DNA of 64,000 bases, from contig CANJLH010000002.1 in assembly GCA_947475415.1 (NCBI GenBank), positions 1-64,000 of the forward strand, written 5' to 3'. The notes under the pieces were generated by a model. That model was not told the DNA's origin, did not search any database, and saw only the letters and a list, made by a program, of their open reading frames with translations. Both the position numbers and the translations under genes were made by a program. The stretch is from Caulobacteraceae bacterium. GTDB lineage: Bacteria; Pseudomonadota; Alphaproteobacteria; Caulobacterales; Caulobacteraceae. Positions 54,715 through 56,421 of this stretch are shown one piece after another (the first letter of the stretch is position 1; the number at the start of each line of letters is the position of its first letter).

Positions 54715-55140
54715 TCAAGCCAACTCGCGGTTGCGCACCGCGTCGAGGTCGACCAGCACGTCTGCTTCGGCCGACATCTGCTGCACCAGGGCCAGCAGCG
54801 CCGCACGCGTCCGCGCCGCCTGGATGCCGGCATAGGCGTGCAGAATCTCCAGCGCGCCGGGCGTGGAAAGGGCGCTGAACACATCGTCGCTCTGCGCGCC
54901 GGCGCCTTCTTCCCCGACCAGCCAGCCCACCGTGGTGCTCAAGGCGCCCGCGGCGGCCACCAGGGTGGAGCCGGAAACGCGATTCACGCCGCGCTCGTAT
55001 TTTTGAACCTGTTGGAACGAAACCCCCAGGGCGGCGGCCAGATCACCCTGGCTCAAGTCCAGCTGGCGGCGGCGTGCGCGCATGCGCGCCCCAATCGCAA
55101 AGTCGACGGGATCGGGGCCTTCGGCGTCTTTCGGTTGCAT
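54715..55140 (-). CDS. XRE-family regulator
   Basis: This 141-residue protein has an N-terminal Cro/C1 HTH (GARMRARRRQLDLSQGDLAAALGVSFQQVQKYERGVNRVS) and a helical C-terminal part of unknown role, with a mostly acidic tail. Proteins of this layout are common in caulobacters. It is divergent from the LuxR-type gene, 89 bases apart. An inverted repeat, CGTGT-AAATA-ACACG at 55157-55171, lies 16 bases from its start and could be its operator. Confidence 0.88.
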   Translation of the reverse strand: MQPKDAEGPDPVDFAIGARMRARRRQLDLSQGDLAAALGVSFQQVQKYERGVNRVSGSTLVAAAGALSTTVGWLVGEEGAGAQSDDVFSALSTPGALEILHAYAGIQAARTRAALLALVQQMSAEADVLVDLDAVRNRELA

Positions 55141-55156
55141 TCGTCTACTCCGTTAC

Positions 55157-55171
55157 CGTGTAAATAACACG
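55157..55171. promoter_or_regulatory. Inverted repeat between XRE and LuxR genes
   Basis: CGTGT-AAATA-ACACG is a perfect 5+5-bp dyad in a short AT-rich patch of the 89-base divergent gap. It could bind the XRE protein and control both genes. That role is inferred. Confidence 0.35.
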
Positions 55172-55229
55172 AAACTAGACGGAACCGCTAGGGTCGCGTT
55201 AACTATTCGCCGTACGCGAGTATTCGGCC

Positions 55230-55973
55230 ATGGACGACACCAGCATCGAGCGCCTCACCAACCGCGAGCGGGACTGCCTGCGGCTGGTTGATCGGCACCT
55301 GTCTTCCAAGCAGATCGCCCGCGAACTCGGCATGTCGAAAACCTCGGTCGACACCTATTGCGACCGGGCGCGGCGCAAGCTTGGGGTCAACGATCGCTAT
55401 GCCGCCGCCCGCCTGTTGGCCGATGTGGATGGCGGCCGATCTGTCCTGATCGCATCAGGACATGATCCGGTCAGGACAGACAGACCCGCCGAACCCTGGA
55501 TGGATGCCTCTGCGACGAGAGGTGCTCACGATGGGCGACTGGCAGAACACACAGAACAGAATGGCGGTCGGACGCGCAGTCCGGATGCGTCAGGAAATAG
55601 TAGCCTTCGAGGCCCGGTGGCCGAACCGGGACCGCTGGGAGGAGCCGATGCCGCGCTTCTCCTGGACCCAGCTGGAGCGCCAGCTCGTCGATCTGGCGGC
55701 GACGGAAACGCAGGCGGAGATGGCCCGGCACCTGGTGTCGGCGACTCGCAAGCAGGCGCAGTTCAAGCCGCCGGAAATGGTCTTGCGCGAGATCCTTTGC
55801 TACGCCTGGGTTTTGCTGGACGAGAACTTTCGTCCAGAGCCTGGGACCCGGAACGAGGACTCCAGTTAGGCGCCGGCGGGCGATTGGTCGCGATCCTGAC
55901 CATCGCCATCGTTTCAGCCATGGCGTTCGGATCCGTCCTGGCTGGGCTGCACGCCCTTAAGGATCTCATTTAG
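55230..55973 (+). CDS. LuxR-type regulator with C-terminal membrane helix
   Basis: Residues 1-65 form a GerE-type HTH (LTNRERDCLRLVDRHLSSKQIARELGMSKTSVDTYCDRARRKLGV). The last 32 residues (216-247) form one hydrophobic helix (LVAILTIAIVSAMAFGSVLAG). HTH plus C-terminal helix is a known caulobacter layout for membrane-tethered regulators. The middle is unusual: from about residue 70 to 213 this frame has poor third-position GC, while a 112-codon ORF in another frame occupies 55531-55869. A small gene may have been inserted between the two functional parts, leaving this frame open by chance. If so, the true protein may end earlier. Confidence 0.7.
   Translation: MDDTSIERLTNRERDCLRLVDRHLSSKQIARELGMSKTSVDTYCDRARRKLGVNDRYAAARLLADVDGGRSVLIASGHDPVRTDRPAEPWMDASATRGAHDGRLAEHTEQNGGRTRSPDASGNSSLRGPVAEPGPLGGADAALLLDPAGAPARRSGGDGNAGGDGPAPGVGDSQAGAVQAAGNGLARDPLLRLGFAGRELSSRAWDPERGLQLGAGGRLVAILTIAIVSAMAFGSVLAGLHALKDLI
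55443..55461. repeat. Perfect inverted repeat upstream of the nested ORF
   Basis: GTCCTGAT-CGC-ATCAGGAC is an 8+8-bp inverted repeat, and TCAGGAC recurs at 55471-55477. The segment 55440-55530 has no clear coding bias in either frame, as if it were intergenic. It may be an operator or a hairpin for the nested gene that begins 70 bases downstream. Confidence 0.5.
55531..55869 (+). CDS. Nested small protein of unknown function
   Basis: This 112-residue protein (first residues GDWQNTQNRMAVGRAVRMRQ) is not a family I know. It is Trp- and Arg-rich, with a helix-like second half. I count G or C in the third position of about 93 of its 112 codons, while the overlapping LuxR frame has well under half to about half in the same stretch, so this frame is the one under selection. 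GAGAGGTG ending 8 bases before the ATG is a good ribosome site. It lies wholly inside the LuxR-type gene's linker. An earlier in-frame ATG at 55462 exists but lacks that site. Confidence 0.75.
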   Translation: MGDWQNTQNRMAVGRAVRMRQEIVAFEARWPNRDRWEEPMPRFSWTQLERQLVDLAATETQAEMARHLVSATRKQAQFKPPEMVLREILCYAWVLLDENFRPEPGTRNEDSS

Positions 55974-56061
55974 CACGGTTTTTAACCGCGCTTAGTCGCC
56001 ACTTCCGAAACCTTAATCCCATAACGTGTCCAGCCTGGATCTGGACGCGAAGGAGACTCAC

Positions 56062-56421
56062 ATGCTTAAGCAACGCCGTCTGATGGCCGACCAAGTCGCC
56101 ACATCGCTCTTTGAAGCCGAAGCCGCCATCGACGCAGCGCTCGGTAAGGCCGCCGCCCTGGCCGGCGTGATGCCCAGCCTACGGGCCGACGCCGGCATCT
56201 CTGCCCTGATCGGCCAGGGCGCCGTCGAATGGACCTCCAAGTCCATCCTGGCGCTCACCGAGGCGCGCCGCGCCATCGTCGAGACCCACAAGGAACTCAG
56301 CATCGCCCAGAAGCAGGTCGGGCTCGGCGCGGTCATGTATGGCGATGGCATGGAGAAGTCGATGCGCGGCGACGAACAACCCACGCTGCGCACCGTGGAG
56401 GACAAGGCGCGCGCCGCCTGA
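56062..56421 (+). CDS. Small helical protein of unknown function
   Basis: A 119-residue, mostly alpha-helical soluble protein rich in Ala, Glu and Lys (TSLFEAEAAIDAALGKAAALAGVMPSLRA, LTEARRAIVETHKELSIAQKQVGLG). I recall similar short proteins in caulobacters but no name. GAAGGAGA precedes the ATG by five bases, a strong start. The upstream gap is 88 bases from the LuxR stop and may hold a promoter. A perfect stem-loop 43 bases after its stop probably ends its transcript. Confidence 0.85.
   Translation: MLKQRRLMADQVATSLFEAEAAIDAALGKAAALAGVMPSLRADAGISALIGQGAVEWTSKSILALTEARRAIVETHKELSIAQKQVGLGAVMYGDGMEKSMRGDEQPTLRTVEDKARAA

Follow-up and report, generated by a model that had tools for sequence, protein, structure and literature searches.

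A small folded protein probably encoded wholly within the disordered linker of a membrane-tethered LuxR-type regulator of Caulobacteraceae

The first 64,000 nucleotides of contig CANJLH010000002.1 from a Caulobacteraceae bacterium (in the following the window) include a gene for a LuxR-type regulator, and inside this gene a shorter open reading frame with a strong coding signal runs in a different frame. How can both be read from the same DNA? The original prediction considered a small gene, inserted in or evolved from the linker of the regulator, to be the simplest reading and a truly overlapping gene pair to be the more unusual one. The parts of the locus and its surroundings are the following.

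54715 to 55140, minus strand: divergent XRE-type HTH regulator (Pfam HTH_3, E 7.8e-13).
55230 to 55973, plus strand: outer gene, 247 aa, predicted to consist of a LuxR/GerE HTH, a disordered linker and a C-terminal membrane helix (Pfam, homologous loci, AlphaFold model).
55251 to 55415, plus strand: GerE HTH domain, residues 8-62 of the outer protein (Pfam; block pLDDT 89-98).
55442 to 55462, plus strand: perfect palindrome TGTCCTGA-N5-TCAGGACA inside the LuxR code (genome scan, conservation).
55471 to 55481, plus strand: third half-site TCAGGACAGAC, a direct repeat of the palindrome's second arm (conservation across loci).
55517 to 55524, plus strand: GAGAGGTG, Shine-Dalgarno-like site of the nested gene (sequence; conservation of Shine-Dalgarno letters).
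55531 to 55869, plus strand: nested gene for a 112-aa helical protein, in the +1 frame relative to the outer gene and wholly inside it (conservation, AlphaFold model).
55872 to 55967, plus strand: C-terminal hydrophobic helix of the outer gene, 3' of the nested stop (modelled helix 215-246, hydropathy).
56062 to 56421, plus strand: neighbour encoding a 119-aa protein (MLKQRR family), same cassette (relatives; gene order like that of plasmid cassettes).
56498 to 56953, plus strand: neighbour encoding a 151-aa hydrophobic protein, judged by eye to be probably a multi-pass membrane protein (sequence).

Relatives of the 119-aa neighbour occur in 113 of 149 Caulobacteraceae genomes. A search for a sigma-70-type promoter in 55100-56100 detected none. 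The spacer that separates the LuxR gene from the divergent XRE regulator contains GTGT-AAATA-ACAC (55158-55170), noticed by eye as a possible operator.

Within the overlap the third-position bias lies in the small frame. Over 55531-55869 the G+C content at the three codon positions is 0.65/0.45/0.83 when read in the small frame and 0.83/0.65/0.46 when read in the LuxR frame; third-position G+C of the LuxR frame is 0.83 in 55230-55439 and 0.76 after the small stop. The hand count of about 83% G/C at third positions in the small frame thus holds (0.83), the LuxR frame is indeed devoid of this bias over the small ORF (0.46), and both the HTH region and the tail bear the coding signature in the LuxR frame that had been ascribed to them (0.83 and 0.76). 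The proposed ribosome site is also present: it is GAGAGGTG, separated by 6 nt from the ATG at 55531. Among the 70 loci whose nested start could be recognised from the first residues of the protein alone, at least four Shine-Dalgarno letters precede it in 63 (22-38% in control windows) and at least five in 28 (0-7% in control windows).

The original prediction had advised looking for the 112-residue protein elsewhere, and relatives were found in 165 of 299 Caulobacteraceae genomes, belonging to 9 of 22 genera (11-sequence profile, E 0.01). Matches to the small protein itself came from 29 of 60 genomes searched, all of the genus to which the window belongs, and in that genus 28 of 35 other genomes have a match with an E-value of 4.8e-21 or better. 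The 11-sequence profile hits 5 of 385 genomes across the class, of which two are Caulobacteraceae and the other three are weak. Wider profiles match 29 of 200 genomes across the order, all of them Caulobacteraceae, and 4 of 289 across the class, two of these being weak matches elsewhere, and the widest profile matches 34 of 200 genomes with four outside the Caulobacteraceae at E 0.002 or worse. Judged from these profiles, the small protein has only weak and scattered matches outside the Caulobacteraceae. The named matches are from Phenylobacterium, Caulobacter, Peiella sedimenti and unclassified relatives. One of the two genes has been lost in some lineages. In one lineage of uncultured MAGs (L016/L153) a nonsense codon lies in the small ORF and the LuxR frame is intact. 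At two loci (L104 in genome G235, L205 in G096) the small protein is present and no LuxR regulator was detected, which suggests that the small protein can act, or linger, on its own.

AlphaFold predicts a helical fold for the small protein, with a mean pLDDT of 81 and helices at residues 45-55, 59-78 and 81-96 (blocks 85-95). At the limits used, the protein of the window matches no family in Pfam, NCBIfam or the PHROGs, so that membership of a known family in these collections is rejected. A Pfam search with 58 members of the group returned seven weak families, the commonest in 18 members and the best with an E-value of 0.0073. Comparison with the PDB by sequence gave a best match of only E 0.048. 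Foldseek found no PDB match for the model at E 0.001 or below, and VIA-align, applied to Foldseek's candidates, scored none above Z 6.1, this value being for a helical bundle. No plasmid or phage sequence was matched by tblastn at E 1, and the only two Rfam matches score far under the gathering threshold.

The protein of the outer gene has a clear HTH (GerE, PF00196, residues 8-62, E 9e-13, 48.1 bits at a cut-off of 23.5). Pfam detects neither a sensor nor a receiver family in it, and as the HTH starts already at residue 8 the protein is to be regarded as a GerE-HTH protein rather than a classical LuxR/NarL regulator. Its AlphaFold model falls into three parts, with block means of pLDDT of 89-98 for residues 1-70, 43-49 for residues 71-200 and 82-91 from residue 211 on, and a terminal helix at residues 215-246. 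In 135 complete loci the tail of the LuxR frame reaches a 19-residue hydropathy of 1.82-3.19. The C-terminal helix would anchor the regulator in the membrane and leave the HTH on the cytoplasmic side. In the overlap the LuxR-frame translation is rich in glycine (0.20), alanine (0.16), arginine (0.115) and proline (0.087).

Whether the LuxR frame is a gene right through the overlap can be read from the relatives. In 135 of 140 distinct loci the HTH, a linker across the small ORF and the hydrophobic helix form one ORF, and over the small core and on to its own stop the LuxR frame is open in 139 of 140. Stops are found only in L104, which has two of them and no HTH within 700 nt. L205 has no HTH within 700 nt and no helix, in L097 and in L029 (identical with L193) the HTH is in another frame, and L185, the fifth incomplete locus, is cut by the contig end. 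In L193/L029 the frame change joins the HTH and the small-protein core in an ORF of 290 aa, which is either a natural fusion or an assembly error. The complete nested pair occurs in seven genera (handles g1, g13, g14, g18, g19, g22 and g32).

An open frame could arise by chance in GC-rich DNA. With the small protein held fixed, the LuxR frame is expected to be open in 17.2% (codons of the window genes) or 19.4% (permutation within the gene) of resampled sequences; for the small ORF of the window itself the figures are 3% with its own codons permuted and 14% with the codon usage of the window. The frame is stop-free over the small ORF in all of 134 distinct proteins that had been pre-selected as intact, so that a chance opening is rejected by this synonymous resampling (134/134 against 0.17-0.19 expected). 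For 26 representatives that are less than 65% identical in the small core, the product of the open-frame chances is about 1e-15 to 1e-17, which serves as a measure rather than as a strict probability because the representatives share ancestry.

Taken from the sequences, both frames appear to be under selection, the small protein being conserved and the LuxR frame being free of stops beyond chance, and both are presumably translated. We therefore consider it very probable that 55531-55869 within 55230-55973 is a fully nested overlapping gene pair on the same strand in the +1 frame. A recent insert that replaces or breaks the linker is at odds with a LuxR frame that is open in 139 and complete in 135 of 140 loci, and such an insertion is rejected. 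Since the LuxR frame is kept, also in the 26 representatives below 65% identity in the core, the true overlap that the original prediction had ranked second is the better account.

The conservation of the linker wording is another matter. In the 26 representatives the similarity of the LuxR-frame translations exceeds that after synonymous permutation (z 8.3 for BLOSUM scores, 6.6 for identity), and the unused third frame likewise does so (z 4.1 and 4.8). Differences at four-fold sites amount to 575/2069 (0.278) in the overlap, 467/1301 (0.359) in the HTH and 302/884 (0.342) in the tail, compared in 41 pairs with each locus used once and the pairs chosen by the rate of the neighbour gene. The neighbour gene has 573/2263 (0.253), a figure that is lowered because the pairs were picked by that gene's rate, and the rate of the overlap is not below it. 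The sequence comparisons thus point to a weak constraint: the outer frame seems to be held open and its wording to matter little. HTH and small-core identities are correlated among the representatives (r 0.56, reached by none of 2000 permutations), as expected of inheritance as a unit.

The nested pair has to be weighed against a locus at which a short HTH protein, the small protein and a small membrane peptide each have a gene of their own, with the LuxR frame between these three genes open by chance. The third-position bias in the overlap, which belongs to the small frame, is compatible with this, as are the chance openings in 0.17-0.19 of resampled sequences and a possible start codon before the helix in 57 of 134 loci. 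However, the LuxR frame has stops over the core in only 1 of 140 loci and forms one ORF in 135 although the spacer lengths vary, and in 77 of 134 loci the stretch that begins 90 nt ahead of the small stop and runs to the helix contains no ATG, GTG or TTG. Moreover, the HTH and the membrane helix lie in one short ORF in 9 of 10 plasmid relatives. We regard the three-gene arrangement as quite improbable, a separate membrane peptide being possible in the 57 loci with a possible start codon.

These plasmid relatives also bear on the origin of the pair. We compared ten plasmid loci, nine from Sphingomonadaceae and one from Caulobacter rhizosphaerae. Most of them encode a GerE-HTH protein of 152-193 aa with a hydrophobic helix at its end (one of these genes is split in two in the annotation and another is missing from it), followed downstream by a protein of about 110-125 aa and then in most cases by a hydrophobic protein of about 145-160 aa. 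Where the window has the 151-aa neighbour, most of these cassettes encode a protein that resembles it in size and appearance. From the HTH end to the helix there are 54-85 residues in nine of the ten loci, the HTH frame of the tenth (L213) ending at once, and a median of 153 residues (109-190) in the nested loci. In none of the ten loci did the small-protein profile find a match below E 1.7, whichever frame was read; their other frames contain chance open stretches of as many as 133 codons (L214).

A small gene could therefore have been inserted into the linker as a unit, with the LuxR frame surviving by luck or decaying, because the difference between linkers of 54-85 residues and a median of 153 is of the order of the small ORF. 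Against this, the overlap has been kept through divergence to less than 65% identity in the small core, and no standalone donor family was found, the profiles being convincing in Caulobacteraceae only. The indel boundaries expected at 55440 and 55869 were not found either; position 55440 falls approximately at the start of the conserved palindrome. Insertion is thus possible as an origin but fails as an account of the present state, for which we hold it to be distinctly improbable. What stands of the original reading is a genuine gene, equipped with a ribosome site and a conserved upstream element of its own, that lies within the linker of a membrane-tethered regulator. The wording given there for the origin, inserted in or evolved from the linker, fits the short plasmid linkers.

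A search anchored on the neighbour gene may extend the nested pair to more distant loci. Among 40 hand-chosen loci, 11 have an HTH regulator with a hydrophobic helix (L293-L295, L303, L305-L307, L309, L315, L316 and L319), nine of them from one genus (g24), and none was detected in the other 29. All 11 have an open stretch of 81-161 codons in the +1 frame over the linker, the other frame having 21-94. By eye these +1 sequences resemble the small core. As four of the 11 have no profile match, the family of small proteins is probably larger than counted here, and the neighbour-anchored loci suggest that the nested gene is old within the Caulobacteraceae. In the genome of the window itself, a second copy of the 119-aa neighbour (L281, 1376-1738, in C1:372300-374700) is followed by a hydrophobic protein (1804-2277), with no HTH regulator detected in this stretch.

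Two further explanations can be dealt with briefly. By a programmed -1 frameshift, ribosomes translating the small frame would continue in the LuxR frame and fuse the small protein to the membrane helix, the LuxR stop lying 62-146 nt past the small stop among the intact loci listed. But slippery sites of the form X XXY YYZ are scarce: within the final 150 nt of the small ORF only 6 of 134 loci have such a heptamer, each a different one, and among the 26 representatives 2 have one where permutation gives 3.7. Given this scarcity the fusion is rejected as highly improbable. That only the regulator is expressed and codon use has created the small ORF incidentally, for which the interrupted small ORF of L016/L153 beside an intact LuxR frame might be quoted, is scarcely credible in view of the third-position bias, the conserved protein, the predicted fold and the Shine-Dalgarno site of the small frame and of small genes that persist where the regulator is undetected (L104, L205).

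Between the HTH code and the small start the LuxR frame carries a further signal, the element TGTCCTGA-N5-TCAGGACA-N8-TCAGGACAGAC at 55442-55481. Of 134 loci, 70 have it in its strict form, 57 of them with its end exactly 49 nt before the assigned small start. The LuxR-frame codons within it are nearly invariant (GGA in 70/70, AGG in 69/70, ACA in 70/70), although in three genes of the window these codons make up only 0.046, 0.032 and 0.014 of their codon families. As rare codons are fixed, the constraint acts on nucleotides and not on residues. The genome contains no other copy of the palindrome within one mismatch and one copy at two. One pair of the palindrome varies among the 70 loci (53 T-A, 14 C-G, 3 C-A). 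Covariation is confined to this one of the eight pairs and perhaps goes back to a single event. Compared with shuffles the changed pairs are not in excess (419 of 500 reach the count) but the changed cells are (3 of 500). As RNA the element is predicted to fold better than all of 200 shuffles (z -3.0), although the stem pairs the first arm with the third; 94.4% of the cells pair in this manner.

In the Phenylobacterium clade, with its near-fixed distance to the inner start, the element probably controls the inner gene. Its symmetry would be explained by an operator for the regulator itself, and an RNA hairpin would explain it too. It may thus be a candidate operator of the regulator or a candidate RNA hairpin, the data fitting both.

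How, then, might the nested pair work? The outer product would be a membrane-tethered LuxR-type regulator with an HTH, a disordered linker of about 140 residues and a single C-terminal membrane helix, and the inner product a small folded helical protein that would be made from its own Shine-Dalgarno site and would stay in the cytoplasm. In the models order and disorder are complementary, the small frame coding for a predicted fold where the LuxR frame codes for predicted disorder. Because the outer frame needs only an open flexible linker and the inner one carries the folded, codon-biased protein, such a pair can persist. The nesting would tie production of the small protein to the mRNA of the regulator, and the small protein would bind the HTH protein or its membrane partners and tune the regulator. 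We tentatively propose that it acts with or against the tethered HTH protein, as its partner or antagonist; being encoded on the same mRNA, the two would always be inherited and expressed together. It may instead do something unrelated and be merely trapped in the linker. A more speculative and rather doubtful extension is that the 744-bp gene forms a circuit of three layers, a tethered factor, an operator or RNA switch on which it acts and a partner feeding back on it, with a linker that chiefly carries the code of the partner, and that this circuit was duplicated as a whole to give many paralogues.

To our knowledge, long fully nested gene pairs on bacterial chromosomes have mostly been reported as single young cases with little conservation. 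The pair described here is complete in seven genera, with 26 representatives less than 65% identical, and there is a visible reason for its persistence, since disorder suffices in one frame at the place where the other must encode a fold. ComS of Bacillus subtilis, a small regulatory protein, is likewise encoded entirely within a larger gene, srfAB, in a different frame. The host gene there is a synthetase subunit and here it is the regulator itself; furthermore, the overlap here covers almost half of the host and the pair is repeated in many paralogues. In phage lambda, Rz1 lies completely inside Rz, in the +1 frame of the same strand, and the two products act together. These are phage lysis proteins, however, and we know of no regulator and no disordered-linker trade-off in that case. 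The sphingomonad plasmid cassette has a gene order and protein types like those of the genes at 55230, 56062 and 56498 in the window, the second and third genes having been compared by eye and position only. It differs in its linker of 54-85 residues, where measured, and in having no detectable nested gene.

Standard annotation programs disallow such genes, as stated in the accessible part of PMC8665328, so that a whole family of small proteins may be hidden. With Caulobacter, the group includes a laboratory model in which the two frames are accessible together. Our search, which covered part of the literature without supplements, found no paper naming the nested pair, and the accessible part of PMC3951458 has nothing on it; PMC4117421 may describe a member. 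According to the sections of that paper available, Caulobacter crescentus CCNA_00832 consists of an 804-nt CDS and an overlapping 360-nt CDS in the +2 frame that is read from an internal transcript, and LC-MS peptides were found for both frames (PMC4117421). The lengths are near those of L074, L077 and L106, where a regulator of 804 nt with a small gene of 363 nt is possible. Of the surrounding genes, CCNA_00830 is given as a putative beta-galactosidase and CCNA_00835 as FljN in the portions accessible of PMC9007349 and PMC4551563, respectively. In the Caulobacter genome G186 the genes between such landmarks, read from the sequence, are a large enzyme, a LysR-type and a WrbA-like gene, and the nested pair lies on the far side of the landmarks and not between them. 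CCNA_00832 may thus be a member, its lengths and frame fitting but the gene order in relatives not; if it is the same gene, one member of the group has already been seen translated in both frames.
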